The translations under genes were made by a program, and so were the position numbers. Source: Calidithermus chliarophilus DSM 9957 (GTDB taxonomy: Bacteria; Deinococcota; Deinococci; Deinococcales; Thermaceae). From it: a stretch of 64,000 nt of DNA. The stretch is from contig NZ_KE387023.1 of assembly GCF_000430045.1 (NCBI RefSeq), forward strand, positions 2,588,929 through 2,652,928, written 5' to 3'. Of the stretch, positions 30,244 to 37,242 are shown in pieces (within the stretch, counting starts at the first letter, position 1; each line of letters starts with the position of its first letter). Below the pieces are notes generated by a model. That model saw only the letters and a program-made list of their open reading frames with translations. It did no database searches and was not told where the DNA came from.

Positions 30244-31041
30244 GTGTTCGACTCGCACATGCACACCCCCCTCTGCCGCCACGCGGTGGGGCACCCCCTC
30301 GAGTACGTCGAGGCCGCGCGGAAGGCGGGCCTGCAGGGCGTGGTCTTCACCGACCATAGCCCCATGCCCCCCTGGTTCGACCCCGAGGTGCGCATGAGCC
30401 TCGAGCAATTGCCCCTCTACCACGCCACGCTCGAGCGCGCCCGGGAGCAGGCCGGGGACTTCTACGTGGGGATCGGGCTCGAGGCCGACTACCACCCCGG
30501 CACCGAGGGCTTCGTGCGGCGGATGGTGGCGGGCTACGCCTACGACTACGTGATCGGCTCGGTGCACTACCTCGGGGCCTGGCCCTTCGACAACCCGGCC
30601 TTCGCCGCCGACTTCGACGAGCGCGACCTGCGCGAGCTGTACCGCGAGTACTTCGGGCTGGTGGTGCGGGCGGCCCGCTCGGGGCTCTACCACGCCATCG
30701 GCCACCTCGACCTGCCCAAGAAGTTCGGCCACGTCCCGCCGGAGGGCTACCTCGACCTGGCGGAGGAGGCCCTGCGGGCCATCGCCGGGGAAGGGCTGGC
30801 CCTGGACGTCAACACGGCGGGCTGGCGCAAGCCGGTGGGGGAGGTGTACCCCGCGCCCGCGCTGCTGGAGCGGGCCCGTGAACTGGGCATCCCTGTGGTG
30901 CTGGGCTCCGACGCCCACGCGCCCGGGGAAGTGGGCCACCGCTTCGCCGACGCGGCCGCGGCGCTGCGCTCGGCGGGCTACCGCGAGGCGCTGGTCTACC
31001 GGGAAGGACGAGGACGGCCCTACGCGCTCGAGGTACGATGA
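30244..31041 (+). CDS. hisK: PHP-family histidinol-phosphatase
   Basis: 265 residues. Metal-dependent phosphatase that makes histidinol in histidine synthesis. The PHP motifs are complete: HMHTPLCRH (5-13), FTDHSPMP, GLEADY, GSVHYL, IGHLDLPKKF and the closing GSDAHAPG. Length and motif spacing fit the monofunctional HisJ/HisK type known from Thermus. GTG start with a purine-rich GAAGGGGGAA upstream. Confidence 0.88.
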   Translation: MFDSHMHTPLCRHAVGHPLEYVEAARKAGLQGVVFTDHSPMPPWFDPEVRMSLEQLPLYHATLERAREQAGDFYVGIGLEADYHPGTEGFVRRMVAGYAYDYVIGSVHYLGAWPFDNPAFAADFDERDLRELYREYFGLVVRAARSGLYHAIGHLDLPKKFGHVPPEGYLDLAEEALRAIAGEGLALDVNTAGWRKPVGEVYPAPALLERARELGIPVVLGSDAHAPGEVGHRFADAAAALRSAGYREALVYREGRGRPYALEVR

Positions 31042-31048
31042 CGCCCTC

Positions 31049-31834
31049 GTGACCGCCCCCTCCGCACTCCTCCCCCGCCTCACCGAGGCCTTCGCCGAAA
31101 TCCCCGAGGTCGAGGCCCTGCTGCTCGCCGGCTCCCAGGCCGCCGCTACGGGCGACGCCCTCTCCGACTACGACTTCTACGTCTACGGGGAGTGTCCGGT
31201 GCCCCTCGAGGCCCGCCGGGCCCTCTTCCGCCGCTTCGACGCGCGCATGGAGCTCGACAACCGCTACTGGGAGACCGAGGACGACGGCGTGGTGGAGGGG
31301 GTCGCCCTCGAGGTGATCTACCGCCCCTGGGCCTTCATCGAGGAGCAGCTCGAGCGCACCCTCGCCCGCTGCGAGGGCTGGGTCGGCTACAGCACCTGTT
31401 TCTGGCACAACTACCTCACCTCGCGGGTCTTGTTCGACCGCACCGGACGGGCCGCCCGCCTGCAGGAGCGCTGCCGGGTGCCCTACCCCCCTGCCCTCAA
31501 GGCCAGCATCCTCGAGAAGAACCTCCCCCTGCTGGGCGGCTCCGTCACCGACTACCCCGGCCAGGTCGCCAAGGCCATCGAGCGCCGGGACTGGGTGAGC
31601 CTCAACCACCGCGTAGCAGCCTTCCTGGCGAGCTACTTCGACGTGCTCTTCGCCCTCAACGAGCTGCCCCACCCCGGGGAGAAGAAGCTGGTGCGCCTGG
31701 CCCAGGAACGCTGCCCGAAGCTCCCGCCCCACTTCGCCCAGGACGTCGAGGCCCTCACCGCGCCCGGCTACCGCGCCGAGGAGATCCCACAGCGCCTGGA
31801 GCGCATGGCGCGCGAACTCCGGGCCCTGGCCTAG
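31049..31834 (+). CDS. nucleotidyltransferase-fold protein, function unknown
   Basis: 261 residues. Minimal nucleotidyltransferase signature AGSQ (27-30) followed by SDYDFYVYG (Asp 40 and Asp 42). The remaining helical part has FWHNYLTSRVLFDRTG, similar to proteins annotated as DUF4037. Paralogous in fold to 25426 but not closely related. GTG 31049 is preceded by TACGAT 9 nt upstream. Placed between the PHP phosphatase and PolX. Confidence 0.65.
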   Translation: MTAPSALLPRLTEAFAEIPEVEALLLAGSQAAATGDALSDYDFYVYGECPVPLEARRALFRRFDARMELDNRYWETEDDGVVEGVALEVIYRPWAFIEEQLERTLARCEGWVGYSTCFWHNYLTSRVLFDRTGRAARLQERCRVPYPPALKASILEKNLPLLGGSVTDYPGQVAKAIERRDWVSLNHRVAAFLASYFDVLFALNELPHPGEKKLVRLAQERCPKLPPHFAQDVEALTAPGYRAEEIPQRLERMARELRALA

Positions 31835-31875: not shown

Positions 31876-33462
31876 ATGAACCGCAAAGAGCTGGCCGGGA
31901 TGCTCGAGTACGCCGCCGACCTGATGGAGGTGCTGGGGGAGGGGGAGTTCCGGGCCCAGGTGTACCGCCGGGCCGCCCGCAACATCGAGAAGCTCGAGGC
32001 CGACCTCCAGACCCTGGCCGCGCAGGGCTTCCGAGGGGTCCCGGGCGTGGGCCCCTCGCTCGCGCCCATGCTCGCCGAGATCGTGCACAGCGGCGAGTTC
32101 GCCTACATGGCCGAGCTCGAGGCGCAGGTGCCCCCCGGCGTGCTGGAGTTCTTCCGGGTGCAGGGGCTGGGCCCCAAGCGCATCCGGGCGCTGTGGGAGC
32201 ACGGCGTGGACTCGCTCGAGGAGCTCATCCGCCACGGCGAGGCCGGGCGGCTGCGGGGCATCCCCGGCTTCGGGGCCAAGACCGAGGCCAACCTGGTCCA
32301 GGCGGCGCGCTTCGCGCTCGAGGGCCTGCGCCGCGTGCTCTACGGCGAGGGGGTCGAAGCCGTCGAGCTGCTGCTGGCCGACTTCGCGAACGCCGGCCTC
32401 CGGGCCGAGGTGGCCGGGAGCTTCCGGCGGGGCCTCGAGACGCTGGGCAACCTCGACTTCGTGGCCCTGGCCGAGCCCGAGGCCGTGCAGCACGCCCTGG
32501 GGCGCTACCTCGAGCGCCTCGAGGGCACCGTCTGGCACGGGCACCTGGGGGGCCTGCCCCTCAAGGTGTTCTGCGCGACCCCCCAGAACTACGGCACCGT
32601 GCTGGTGCGGGCCACGGGCTCACTGGCCTTCCTCGAGTCGCTGGGCGCCCTGCCGGAGGCCCCCACCGAGGCCGAGGTCTTCGAGCGCCTGGGACGCCGG
32701 CCGGTCTCGCCCTACTGGCGCGAGCCCGAACACCTGGGCCTGGAGGAGCCCGTCCAGCCCCTGCGCCGGGAGGACCTGCTGGGCCTCATCCACTGCCACT
32801 CCACCTACTCCGACGGCACCGCCAGCCTGCGGGCCATGGCCGAGGCCGCCATCGCCGAGGGCTACGGCTACATGGTCATCTCCGACCACTCCCAGTCGGC
32901 GCCCTACGCGGGGGGCTTGGGGCCGGAGCGGGTGCTCGAGCAGTGGGCCGAGGTCGAGCGCCTCAACGCCGAGCTCGCCCCCTTCCGCATCCTCAAGGGC
33001 ATCGAGTCCGACATCCTCCCCGACGGCTCCCTCGACTACCCCGACGAGATCCTTGCCGGCTTCGACGTGGTGATCGGCAGCCTGCACTCCGGGCTCAAGC
33101 TGCCCCGCGAGGCCCAGACCGAGCGCCTGCTGAAGGCGCTGGACAACCCCTACCTCACGGTCCTGGGCCACCCCACCGGGCGCCTGCTGCTGCGCCGCCA
33201 GGGCGCCGACGCCGACTGGGAGCGGGTGCTCGAGCGCGCCGCCGAGCGGGGCGTGACCGTCGAGATCAACTGCAACTACTACCGCTGCGACCTCGACTGG
33301 CGCCTCGCCCTGAAGTGGCGCGACCGGCTGCGCTTCTCCCTGGGGACCGACGCGCACAGCGTGGAAGGGATTCAGACCATCTCCTACGGCCTGGTCCTGG
33401 GGCGTAAAGCCGGCCTGGGCACCGCGCACGTGATTAATTGCCGGCCCGAGGGCCAGCGTTAA
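31876..33462 (+). CDS. polX: PolX-family protein with degenerate polymerase site and intact PHP domain
   Basis: 528 residues, about 45 fewer than T. thermophilus PolX. N-terminal 8-kDa-type domain with helix-hairpin-helix motifs (GVPGVGPSLA; RGIPGFGAKT), then a PolX palm beginning GSFRR (181-185). The first catalytic Asp of the usual GDID motif is Asn in GNLD (191-194), and the third Asp position is Lys 230 (LPLKVF). After ATGS (246-249) the thumb region with the HN...R motif is shortened. The C-terminal PHP domain is complete: HCHSTYSDG (306-314), ISDHSQ, GHPTGR, GTDAHS. The polymerase is therefore probably dead and the phosphoesterase/exonuclease active. Alignment is from memory of the family. 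Confidence 0.85.
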   Translation: MNRKELAGMLEYAADLMEVLGEGEFRAQVYRRAARNIEKLEADLQTLAAQGFRGVPGVGPSLAPMLAEIVHSGEFAYMAELEAQVPPGVLEFFRVQGLGPKRIRALWEHGVDSLEELIRHGEAGRLRGIPGFGAKTEANLVQAARFALEGLRRVLYGEGVEAVELLLADFANAGLRAEVAGSFRRGLETLGNLDFVALAEPEAVQHALGRYLERLEGTVWHGHLGGLPLKVFCATPQNYGTVLVRATGSLAFLESLGALPEAPTEAEVFERLGRRPVSPYWREPEHLGLEEPVQPLRREDLLGLIHCHSTYSDGTASLRAMAEAAIAEGYGYMVISDHSQSAPYAGGLGPERVLEQWAEVERLNAELAPFRILKGIESDILPDGSLDYPDEILAGFDVVIGSLHSGLKLPREAQTERLLKALDNPYLTVLGHPTGRLLLRRQGADADWERVLERAAERGVTVEINCNYYRCDLDWRLALKWRDRLRFSLGTDAHSVEGIQTISYGLVLGRKAGLGTAHVINCRPEGQR

Positions 33463-33536: not shown

Positions 33537-33971
33537 GTGATAAGACCTCGAGGGTTGACCCTTATCGAGCTGCTGCTCGTCATCGCCCTGATCGGGATCG
33601 TGCTCGGGGTCATGGCGGTCTCGAGCCGCAGGATGCTCGGCAACCAGGAAGCTAAGGCGGGCCTCAACTCCGTACGGCAGATCGTGTGGCAGGGGGCTAC
33701 CGCCGCCGCCAGCCGGGGCCAGCGCCTCGACCTCGTCCGTGTCGGACGGCGCCTCCAGGTGCAGACCCAGGAGAGCACTCCCCGGGTGATCCGCTCCGTG
33801 GACCTGACCGCCGCTCTGAGCGCGCAGCTCCCCAACGGCACCTGGTTCAGCTTCACGCCCCCCGGGAAGGTCATCTTCCCTACGGGGTTCGCCCAACCGG
33901 TCAACGTCACGGTCAACGGGCGTTCGTACTCCCTCAGCTTCTCGCTGATCGGGGAAGTCAAGGTGCAGTGA
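33537..33971 (+). CDS. type IV pilin-like protein (GspH/FimT type, PilA1-like)
   Basis: 144 residues. Short basic leader MIRPRG, then the prepilin peptidase site G|LTLIELLLV with Glu at +5 and a ~20-residue hydrophobic helix, followed by a small beta-rich globular part. Minor pilin of the pilus/DNA-uptake machine. First gene of a four-gene operon that matches the Thermus pilA1-pilA2-pilA3-comZ order. GTG start, leaderless. Confidence 0.88.
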   Translation: MIRPRGLTLIELLLVIALIGIVLGVMAVSSRRMLGNQEAKAGLNSVRQIVWQGATAAASRGQRLDLVRVGRRLQVQTQESTPRVIRSVDLTAALSAQLPNGTWFSFTPPGKVIFPTGFAQPVNVTVNGRSYSLSFSLIGEVKVQ

Positions 33972-33985
33972 ACGAGGGCACGGCT

Positions 33986-34471
33986 ATGAATAGACGAGGG
34001 TTGACGCTCATTGAAGTGATAGTGGCACTGGCCGTGCTGGGCATAGCCCTGTCGGCTTTCATGCTCCTGATCCTCGGGAATATGCGCCAGAACGTCGAAT
34101 CGGGGGGGCGCACCGAGGCATCCCAACTGCTGAACTACTTCGGGCGCCGGCTGGTAGGGGCCGACGACGAGGTGATGCCGGACAGCGCCTCCACCTACCG
34201 GGAGTGGAACTACGGGACGCTCAGCACCAACTTCCCCGACCTGACCAGTGAGGGGAACTTCGCCAACCCCAACCTCTACCGCGCGAGGATCACCAACGAA
34301 GGCACGCCCACCTGGGCGGTGAGCGGCGGCCTCAACCTCAGCAGCCTGCGGGCATACCGCATCCAAGTGTGCTGGCGTGGCGCACAGGGGGAGTCGTGCG
34401 TGGAGGCCCGAACCGTCGGGGCCGCCCCCGTGGCGGGTGGGGCGGCAGCACCCCTGCCCGGCATCAACTAG
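33986..34471 (+). CDS. type IV pilin-like protein (PilV/PilA2-like)
   Basis: 161 residues. Leader MNRRG and cleavage site G|LTLIEVIVALAVLG with Glu at +5. The mature part includes two cysteines (about 128 and 136) that could form a disulfide. Starts 14 bp after the previous pilin; weak GAGGG site upstream. Membrane-embedded before assembly. Confidence 0.88.
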   Translation: MNRRGLTLIEVIVALAVLGIALSAFMLLILGNMRQNVESGGRTEASQLLNYFGRRLVGADDEVMPDSASTYREWNYGTLSTNFPDLTSEGNFANPNLYRARITNEGTPTWAVSGGLNLSSLRAYRIQVCWRGAQGESCVEARTVGAAPVAGGAAAPLPGIN

Positions 34472-34480
34472 GAGAAGGGC

Positions 34481-35329
34481 ATGCGCAGAGCTAGAGGCTT
34501 CACCCTTATCGAAATCCTGGTCGCCCTGGCCGTGCTGATCACGGTGACGGCGATCGCGTATAACGGCATGATCCAGTCGCTCCAGACGCAAAGCGACCAG
34601 GAGGCCGCGACCAACTCTCAGGCGAAGCTGCGAAGGGTGATGGAGGTGATCACGCAAGACCTGCGCAGCGCGATCTTCGGCGGGATCATCAACCAGCCCT
34701 ACACCCCCACCGCGCGGGCGGTTTCCTTCGGCCTCATCGACGGCGGGGCCGGGTATCCGGTCGTCAACAAGCAGGACCAGTACGCCGACATCCTCTCCGC
34801 GGCGGCGACGGCGTCCGCTTTGGGGATCGGCGTCAACGACCAGCTCCTGATGGTCAATGGCGCGCAGTCCATCGTGTTGCCCGTTTCCGGCGTGGCCCAG
34901 AACGGTCAGCCCAGCCAGTGGAGGCTCTCCCACTCCTCCTGCCGCAACCCGCTCGCCTACGCCCCCACGGGCACCCTGGTTTTCCGCATCCGGGCCATGG
35001 GGATCCGTTACGACCCCGACCAGGACACCCTGTACACCCGCGAGGGCGGCACGGAGCAGGCCATGGCCTTCGATATCACGAACTTCCGCATCGACTACGT
35101 CTACACGAGCTCGAGCGGCACCCTGCGGACCTGGGATTTCTCCGGCGGTGCTTTCCCGGGTATGACCTTTACCGACGCGGGCACGACCTACACCCTCCAG
35201 CGCTTGCAGGTGGTGATGGAAGCGCGGGAAATCTCCCGGGGCCGTGCCATCACCAGGACGTACACCGGCCAGGTGGAGCTCCTCAACAACGGCACCTACG
35301 CCATAGGGACGGTGGTCTCATGCTCATGA
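34481..35329 (+). CDS. type IV pilin-like protein (PilW/PilA3-like)
   Basis: 282 residues. Leader MRRARG, cleavage G|FTLIEILVALAVL with Glu at +5, then a long extracellular part, as in PilW-type minor pilins. AGGAG precedes the ATG. Its 3' end overlaps the comZ-like gene by 10 bp. Confidence 0.88.
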   Translation: MRRARGFTLIEILVALAVLITVTAIAYNGMIQSLQTQSDQEAATNSQAKLRRVMEVITQDLRSAIFGGIINQPYTPTARAVSFGLIDGGAGYPVVNKQDQYADILSAAATASALGIGVNDQLLMVNGAQSIVLPVSGVAQNGQPSQWRLSHSSCRNPLAYAPTGTLVFRIRAMGIRYDPDQDTLYTREGGTEQAMAFDITNFRIDYVYTSSSGTLRTWDFSGGAFPGMTFTDAGTTYTLQRLQVVMEAREISRGRAITRTYTGQVELLNNGTYAIGTVVSCS

Positions 35330-37242
35330 GAAAGTCGCACGGCATCGCTCTGGTCATCACCCTCGTTTCGATCCTGGTCGTCGGCGGCGTCTCGGCCCTG
35401 ATGTTCAGCCGGATGCTCGACGAGATGCGCCACAGCCGGGACAACACCGCGGTCGTTCAGACCCTCATGCTGGCGCGTGGCGGGGCCAACGTGGCCGGGG
35501 CGTTGCTCACGGGGCCCGTGAGGGACCGGTTGCAGCAGGTGGTGAACGCGACCTCGAGCACCACCAACCGCTGGAGCTACGGGGGGAACAGCAGCGGGAC
35601 CCGCCCGGACCCCGCCACCGTCGCGAGCGACCTGGCGACCGTCGCGAGCCAGCTCCAGACCGAGGTCAATAGCCTGGTGTGCGACCTCAACCCGGCGCCT
35701 GCGAGCTCCGGGGCTACCGTGCGGGTACGGGTGTACTTCACCAACACGGCCTGTGCGGGGTCCGCCACTTACCCCAGCGGCGTGGGGCTGCCCACGGGGG
35801 TCAAGCTGCCGTCCGGGCGTTTCGTGGACGGTGCTCCCCGGGGTGGCACCGGGCAGAACAACCTCCAGCAGTACTCCCTGCCTTTCGTGATGGTCGCCGA
35901 GGCCGCCCAGGGCATCTACCAGCGTAACGTCGTGCTGCAAGGGGAATTCCGCTTCCCGATCGGGCGCAGCAGCTTCGCCCGCTACGCGTTGTTCACCAAC
36001 GTCCACACCGCCCGCGGGGGCGGGGACGTGTGGTTTACGGACCGGACCCTTTTCGACGGCCCCGTACACACCAACCAGTACTTCCGCTTCTACCGCAGTC
36101 CCTGGTTCGGGGGCGAGGTGACCAGTGCCGGGTGCGCGTCTCCGGGAGCGTCGAGCTGCAGCGGGAGCGTCACCCCTGGGGCGCGGTTCATGTCTTCCGA
36201 CGGCAGCCGCCAGACCTTTATCGCTGAAAGTGCAATGTCCCCCAGCGCTTCCGCCCCGACCTACCGGGGGACCCAACCCACGTTCACCGACGGCGTGAGC
36301 TGGAACTCGAGCTTCGTCAAGCTGCCGGACAACGACAGCCGCCAACGCGACGCCGCCGACGACCGGGGACTGCGCTTCACGAGCAACCTCTACTCCCTCG
36401 AGCTCTACGCGACCGACAGCAACGGCAACCTCCTGACCCGCAACTCCTCGGGGGAGTGGCAGCCCACGGCCACCTACCAGTACATCAAGGCCTGCACCAG
36501 CTCGAGCAGTTGTACGGAGTACCGCTACGCGGACGGCCCCAGCAAGGTGCTGTATCGCAAGAGCGGCAGCAGTTGGGTGGCGGTGCAGAGCAACTTCAAC
36601 GGGGTCATCTACGTCGACGGGAGCATTAACCGGTTGCGCGGGCCCAGCCGGGTGCCCGCCAACAGCACCAACCCCGACGACGCTCCTCCCGCCCTCGCGC
36701 ACTTCGCGGAGATCACCATAGCGGCCCGGGACGACATCCGCATCACGCGCGACCTCAAGTACGAGAACCCGCCGTGTGACTCCAGCCCCACCCGCAATAC
36801 CGACGGCAGCGTGACCCGGGCCACCTGTGACGACCTGGAGGTCAACAACATCCTCGGGATCTACGCTCAAGGAACCTCCTCCGACCCGGCCGACGTCCTC
36901 ATCGGCGGGGGCGACGCGTCCAGCGGGCTGCGTGCTCCTCAGAACATCGCGGTCCAGGGGGTGCTCATGAGCTCGACGGGCATCGTCGGGGTCGAGAATT
37001 ACAACGACCTCTCGCCTTCCGGCGACGTGCACCTGCTGGGCGGGGTCATCGAGTACTACTACGGGGCTTTCGGCACGTTCAACCCGTCGACCGGGGCTCC
37101 TACCGCCGGTTACGGGCGCAAGTTCACCTACGACCAGCGCATGCTCAACGGCAAGGCGCCGCCTTACTTCCCCACCACCGAACTCGACGAGGTGGGTACG
37201 CCTCGAGTCATCAGCTTCGGGCAGCGCGAGCAGGTCTACTGA
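35320..37242 (+). CDS. comZ: ComZ/PilX-like pilus-associated surface protein
   Basis: 640 residues. The N terminus MLMRKSHG|IALVITLVSILVVGG looks like a class III pilin helix but lacks Glu at +5, as in PilX-type proteins. A large extracellular region rich in Ser, Thr and Asn follows, including a DUF4900-like centre (HTARGGGDVWFTD, DGPVHTNQYFRF). The position after three minor pilins matches ComZ of T. thermophilus, a DNA-uptake pilus protein; it is somewhat longer. A second ATG at 35326 is also possible. The TGA stop is also the left target duplication of a MITE-like element, and no major pilin gene (pilA4) follows. Confidence 0.75.
   Translation: MLMRKSHGIALVITLVSILVVGGVSALMFSRMLDEMRHSRDNTAVVQTLMLARGGANVAGALLTGPVRDRLQQVVNATSSTTNRWSYGGNSSGTRPDPATVASDLATVASQLQTEVNSLVCDLNPAPASSGATVRVRVYFTNTACAGSATYPSGVGLPTGVKLPSGRFVDGAPRGGTGQNNLQQYSLPFVMVAEAAQGIYQRNVVLQGEFRFPIGRSSFARYALFTNVHTARGGGDVWFTDRTLFDGPVHTNQYFRFYRSPWFGGEVTSAGCASPGASSCSGSVTPGARFMSSDGSRQTFIAESAMSPSASAPTYRGTQPTFTDGVSWNSSFVKLPDNDSRQRDAADDRGLRFTSNLYSLELYATDSNGNLLTRNSSGEWQPTATYQYIKACTSSSSCTEYRYADGPSKVLYRKSGSSWVAVQSNFNGVIYVDGSINRLRGPSRVPANSTNPDDAPPALAHFAEITIAARDDIRITRDLKYENPPCDSSPTRNTDGSVTRATCDDLEVNNILGIYAQGTSSDPADVLIGGGDASSGLRAPQNIAVQGVLMSSTGIVGVENYNDLSPSGDVHLLGGVIEYYYGAFGTFNPSTGAPTAGYGRKFTYDQRMLNGKAPPYFPTTELDEVGTPRVISFGQREQVY

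Follow-up and report, generated by a model that had tools for sequence, protein, structure and literature searches.

The polX locus and its products

The window, a 64,000-nt stretch of the Calidithermus chliarophilus DSM 9957 genome to which all coordinates refer, contains a polX gene of 528 codons starting with ATG (31876-33462, +), which was identified from its ORF, solved relatives and an AlphaFold2 model. Upstream on the same strand lie a gene for a HisJ-type histidinol phosphatase, which is a conserved neighbour (30244-31041, +; NCBIfam PRK07328, 390.7 bits against a cut-off of 202), and a nucleotidyltransferase-like gene with an unsettled start codon and weak Polbeta and DUF4037 matches below cut-off (31040-31834, +). 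These are the PHP phosphatase and the nucleotidyltransferase that an earlier, sequence-only reading of this DNA had placed before polX. Downstream of polX (33537-37242, +), we observed a run of prepilin-like genes, with an N_methyl motif in the two scanned, and a large further ORF; a prepilin-like run also adjoins polX at locus L154, and none was detected near polX at L153 or L155.

The PolX protein comprises an N-terminal 8-kDa domain (residues 1-74, 31876-32097, +; PF14716, 1.3e-17), an HhH/thumb segment with GLGPK and GFGAK motifs (residues 75-147, 32098-32316, +; HHH_5, 8.2e-13), a palm remnant in which GSxRR is kept (residues 148-241, 32317-32598, +), a shortened fingers and linker region in which TGS is kept (residues 242-300, 32599-32775, +), and a PHP nuclease domain (residues 301-522, 32776-33441, +). 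Pfam matches above cut-offs were HHH_8 at residues 1-74, HHH_5 at 93-145 and PHP at 306-465; palm models matched below threshold only, and the NCBIfam PolX model PRK08609 scored 331.9 bits, under its cut-off of 426. The best solved relatives in a phmmer search were DrPolX of Deinococcus radiodurans (2w9m, E 1.4e-108) and the canonical TtPolX of Thermus thermophilus (3au2, E 8e-79), and Foldseek matched 2w9m over the whole length at 40% identity. The AlphaFold2 model, built from an input of 46 sequences, had a mean pLDDT of 93.9 and contained the palm strands and helices. By VIA, it superposed on TtPolX 3au6 with Z 44.8 (514 aligned, rmsd 5.7 A) and on DrPolX 2w9m with Z 43.9 (510 aligned, rmsd 15.4 A). 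Domain order and fold are like those of TtPolX (3au2, 3au6); the larger rmsd to 2w9m was taken to mean that the domain arrangement differs from that of DrPolX.

An altered polymerase site beside an intact PHP site

In the phmmer alignment, the palm motif GNLD faces GDLD of TtPolX 3au2. Asn192 (32449-32451, +) takes the place of the first catalytic Asp, D198; D194 corresponds to D200 and is kept; and Lys230 (32563-32565, +) takes the place of the third, D243. The TtPolX numbers were counted from this alignment and agree with GSARR at 187-191 and YLTGSKAHS at 258-266 in Prostova et al. (2022; PMC9226535). Both substitutions had been called from the letters alone, and the alignment bears them out. 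A shifted placement of the Asp residues, which the sequence-only reading had named as the finding to set against its own, was ruled out: the motif contexts align gap-free, and residues 194 and 230 lie inside predicted strands (193-198 and 227-234, respectively).

The change is not particular to this genome. In an alignment of 65 PolX proteins of the order, all 27 members of one clade (families f1 and f4) combined an [N/S/G]-D-[K/R] triad with the complete PHP site HHHEHHEDH, and the other 25 f1/f4 copies had DDD. The presence of the altered triad in 26 further relatives rules out chance or a sequencing slip. Position 230 is Lys in 7 and Arg in 20 of the 27, and GSxRR, TGS and D194 are kept in every one. 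Eight of 72 loci were dropped from the alignment, namely L001 and L003 (duplicates of the query), L002 (HHH-only), and L063, L064, L066, L071 and L072 (split pieces).

The protein is also shorter than canonical PolX (528 versus 575 residues). Between TGS and the first PHP ligand lie 59 residues, compared with 82 in the canonical paralogues (23 shorter), and between GSxRR and TGS 66 compared with 73 (7 shorter; 9 across the whole palm range). The deletion lengths of 9 and 23 refer to alignment ranges 148-241 and 242-300, not to the domain boundaries (<77 and <55) of PMC9226535. A shortening after ATGS had been noted previously and is present, but the figure proposed, about 45 residues, does not hold: about 23 are missing after TGS and about 9 in the palm, and 45 is roughly what separates the protein from canonical PolX in overall length. 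The shortened part had also been named the thumb; it is termed the fingers in PMC9226535. Within it, the dNTP-binding residues have changed, with TGSKAHS of TtPolX reading TGSLAFL in C. chliarophilus (GS retained).

In the PHP domain, nine of nine metal ligands are present (H306, H308, H338, E377, H404, H432, E463, D492 and H494), as had been claimed. HHHEHHEDH was also found in 80 of 80 loci of a contig search (the best 80 of 592 confirmed relatives), 45 of which were used in a second alignment set. Since the query was an altered PolX and the loci were the best 80 of 592, the share of altered triads among them is uninformative on frequency. In Bacillus subtilis PolX, R469, R474, N498, R503 and K545 of the PHP domain line the DNA path (PMC6616362); by motif-based mapping, they correspond to R436, R441, N465, R470 and K511, which are invariant in 27/27 clade members. 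L407 stands in place of B. subtilis F440, and Leu occupies this position in 21 of the 27 and in 65 of the 93 remaining rows. An Ala mutant of F440 lowered AP-endonuclease efficiency 480-fold and exonuclease 32-fold (PMC6616362), which leaves room for a nuclease that is less active or tuned in another way.

Assignment to the noncanonical PolX class

C. chliarophilus PolX is a noncanonical PolX, a class already published in 2022 with Meiothermus silvanus and relatives among its members (Prostova et al. 2022, PMC9226535). According to that study (NAR), proteins of this class occur in Deinococcus, Meiothermus and many other bacteria and have Mn2+-dependent 3'-5' exonuclease activity without polymerase activity. 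The D. radiodurans and D. gobiensis members were inactive as polymerases and active as Mn2+-dependent 3'-5' exonucleases, and the D. radiodurans exonuclease required the PHP site; palm and fingers deletions occurred in many, not all, noncanonical PolX, and GS was kept in merely 42% of altered PolX (PMC9226535). The C. chliarophilus protein shows the triad substitution, the palm and fingers deletions, the changed dNTP-binding residues and the intact PHP site, and it groups with altered PolX; the three acidic palm residues of a canonical polymerase are not present, two being N192 and K230.

With the noncanonical PolX of M. silvanus and relatives, D. radiodurans and D. gobiensis described in PMC9226535, it shares the altered triad, the shortened palm and fingers, the complete PHP site and the phylum, and a stand-alone PHP gene neighbours polX in both. 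It differs from the published set in that GS is kept, the predicted lyase Lys is missing, and neither Ku nor a LigD prim-pol domain was found in its genome; its triad is NDK, compared with AEE in D. radiodurans PolX. In the actinobacterial PolX-like proteins of PMC12926913, the PHP domain is likewise kept and polymerase function gone, but the polymerase region itself is absent, whereas in C. chliarophilus it is present and under selection.

Loss of the predicted lyase residue

Met65 (32068-32070, +) faces the Lys of the AEK motif in human Pol lambda 5cwr in a phmmer alignment. We take this Lys to be the dRP-lyase nucleophile. It is present in 25/25 canonical f1/f4 copies (G051, described below, included) and in none of 27 noncanonical f1/f4 copies, all of which have M, L, V, I or A. 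The Lys is also missing from DrPolX in the Pol lambda alignment, and none of the 15 remaining Deinococcota rows (eleven altered, three DDD and one DEE) has it. According to PMC9226535, the lyase domain of noncanonical PolX carries no specific alterations; for this order, the statement seems to fail at this residue, judging from the alignments.

Loss of the Lys was rejected as a general mark of altered PolX, since 49 of 63 altered PolX of other phyla keep it (among the matches listed) and three canonical rows of family f3 lack it. The latter, L054, L055 and L056, are DDD proteins with A, Q and Q, respectively, at the lyase site, indicating that lyase loss can occur apart from polymerase loss.

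Two old paralogues and their distribution

A tree of 138 rows was built on the columns of the 8-kDa, HhH and PHP domains, leaving the palm and fingers columns out, by a quick search with SH-aLRT support only; seven duplicate loci of the contig-search set (best 80 of 592) were removed. The altered Deinococcota PolX and one DEE row formed a group of 40 rows (support 98), within which the Thermaceae-type clade comprised 28 rows (support 99), and the canonical Deinococcota paralogues fell on a branch of their own (28 rows, support 99). The altered/canonical label requires five changes on the tree. The separate supported branches indicate two old paralogues, of which C. chliarophilus kept the nuclease-only one. 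The sequence-only reading had implied a recent loss particular to this gene; the tree points instead to an old paralogue common to the order.

The C. chliarophilus genome (4.69 Mb, 9 contigs, 99.97% complete) yielded one PolX. A search for a second intact polX, suggested along with that reading, found none: a second PF14716 match (L002, C5:124164-124388) covers query residues 5-140 and had no detectable palm or PHP domain, so it was rejected as a PolX. Its frame has the HHH_8 domain with a stretch of N in the middle. The noncanonical gene was found in 20 of 37 genomes of the family (2/2 of genus g1, 16/16 of g3 and 2/2 of g4), and named loci put g3-like sequences in Meiothermus and Thermaceae. 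Seven of the 20 also had a canonical copy with a readable triad, and one more (G033) had such a copy in pieces. Only other PolX copies were found in g2 and g5, where the triads read, in 11 of 17 genomes (10 of 16 in g5), were all DDD. A canonical-type PolX of genus g5 (L066, G018:C4:304500-306500) lies in two frames (417 and 401 codons open), through either a frameshift or a sequencing error.

One genome of family f4 (G051, 98% complete) presents a mirror case. Its noncanonical PolX has the triad GDK and an intact PHP site. A second PolX in an open frame (L062, 145-1866, +; the same place as L165; G051:C76) has DDD in the palm and KFRERREGK at the PHP site, where the other 10 canonical copies found in f4 have QHHEHHEDH (PHP loss in 1/11). 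From these sequences, the tasks of a single PolX seem to be shared out between the two PolX of G051, by reciprocal loss in paralogues.

Selection on the altered PolX

Whole-gene dN/dS values against the two nearest relatives were 0.17 and 0.21; with the open frame, these values led us to reject a pseudogene or frameshift. The HhH/thumb segment gave 0.03 against the same relatives. The palm gave the highest domain value against L005 (0.42) and a value below that of PHP against L004 (0.19), such pairwise values being noisy. Across 12 genomes with both copies, the ratio of altered to canonical divergence was 0.99 for the palm, 1.09 for PHP and 2.1 for the fingers (the canonical set for divergence and conservation comparisons had n=24, with G051 left out because of its lost PHP site). 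Relaxed selection on the palm, which was expected, was not seen in this matched set. The dead palm, diverging no faster than the active one, is hence still needed, most simply as the frame that holds DNA for the nuclease. Work by Nakane and colleagues in 2009 reportedly found that the exonuclease activity of TtPolX needs both the polymerase core and the PHP domain.

Function of C. chliarophilus PolX

The protein is very probably a nuclease-only PolX, in which a relative of the polymerases has become a PHP nuclease that binds DNA. The sequence-only reading had arrived at the same conversion, which is also the published reading of the class (PMC9226535). The support obtained from sequence and model lies in which residues were lost and which were kept, in a predicted fold that is intact, in purifying selection, and in the failure to detect another PolX or Ku in the genome. 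The HhH and 8-kDa domains would grip DNA close to a nick, gap or 3' end, and the palm, no longer binding catalytic metals, may act as a rigid scaffold on which the DNA is positioned. The multi-metal PHP site would then use Mn2+ to clear the 3' end of nucleotides or blocking groups, by analogy with DrPolX and the D. gobiensis member, after which another polymerase, probably Pol I, would fill in. Such a protein would act in base-excision repair or single-strand-break clean-up, not in NHEJ.

A pure scaffold need not keep D194, GSxRR and TGS, and their conservation in all 27 clade members would count against one. The palm might instead be a non-catalytic sensor of nucleotides or DNA ends, in which a D194-K230 salt bridge replaces the metals, and GSxRR and TGS bind a triphosphate or 5'-phosphate and gate the PHP nuclease. 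The basic residue at 230 and the palm divergence ratio, set against the 2.1-fold ratio of the fingers, agree with such a role. However, folding and DNA contacts alone can explain palm conservation, and on its dNTP-base side the pocket has been remodelled or removed (just 1/27 has Lys at position 250, and the fingers are shortened), so we regard a sensor as unlikely. Also quite unlikely is the fuller proposal, in which the clade's palm is a conserved metal-free pocket, made up of D194, the basic residue at 230, GSxRR and TGS, that reads the state of nucleotides or DNA ends and regulates the PHP nuclease, in a protein without either polymerase or predicted lyase catalysis.

Another possibility is that PolX and the upstream HisJ-type phosphatase form one end-processing unit, with the neighbour adding nuclease or phosphatase activity. 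In PMC9226535, 'a stand-alone PHP domain' is given as a common PolX neighbour in Deinococci, with extra nuclease activity as its suggested contribution. The gap between hisJ and noncanonical polX is at most 130 nt in 25 of 28 f1/f4 genomes, with overlap in three, and the two genes are also close in two f2 genomes; the exceptions are C. chliarophilus (837 nt, with the nucleotidyltransferase-like gene inserted), G029 (322 nt) and G039 (8.7 kb). Against this, the neighbour is the sole HisJ-type histidinol phosphatase detected in each such genome, including the one copy found in C. chliarophilus; it is kept in 16/16 genomes of genus g5, where noncanonical PolX was not found; and its closest solved relative is the T. 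thermophilus histidinol phosphatase 2yxo (E 1.7e-108). The HisJ identity makes histidine synthesis, which accounts for the neighbour being there, a likelier role than extra nuclease activity, and we consider an end-processing unit very improbable. A literature search, with most subscription journals outside its coverage, found no published account of the HisJ identity of this neighbour, of the lyase-Lys loss or of the G051 case. Biochemical work on this protein or on another noncanonical member from Thermaceae was not found either.

The nucleotidyltransferase-like gene, which had been implied to form a unit with polX, was rejected as a conserved partner: a strong match was found in 1 of 61 genomes, its own, and the gene was not found between hisJ and polX in relatives. 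It is probably an acquired, genome-specific insertion.

We give hardly any credence to continued polymerisation through an alternative metal site formed by D194 and other acidic residues. PMC9226535 recounts earlier reports of polymerase activity in D. radiodurans PolX, its AEE triad notwithstanding, but the 2022 work detected none, and a single Asp mutant abolishes polymerisation by B. subtilis PolX (PMC9226535). In our clade, moreover, one triad position is Lys or Arg in 27/27 and the fingers are truncated. A role in Ku/LigD end joining has next to no probability: altered PolX are statistically associated with NHEJ genes across bacteria (PMC9226535), but Ku (PF02735) was found in 0/37 family genomes, C. 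chliarophilus included, and 0/8 f4 genomes (1/61 overall), so the link cannot apply, barring a divergent Ku missed by the model, and with no LigD prim-pol domain found in the C. chliarophilus genome, we rejected an NHEJ partnership for the lineage.

The nuclease-only reading of C. chliarophilus PolX lends support to what has been published on bacterial PolX, namely that selection acts most strongly on the nuclease and not on the polymerase. As a case it is clean: the genome has a single nuclease-only PolX, and neither a canonical copy nor Ku was found in it. Two refinements of that view can be tested, the missing lyase-site Lys and a constraint on the dead palm that has not diminished.
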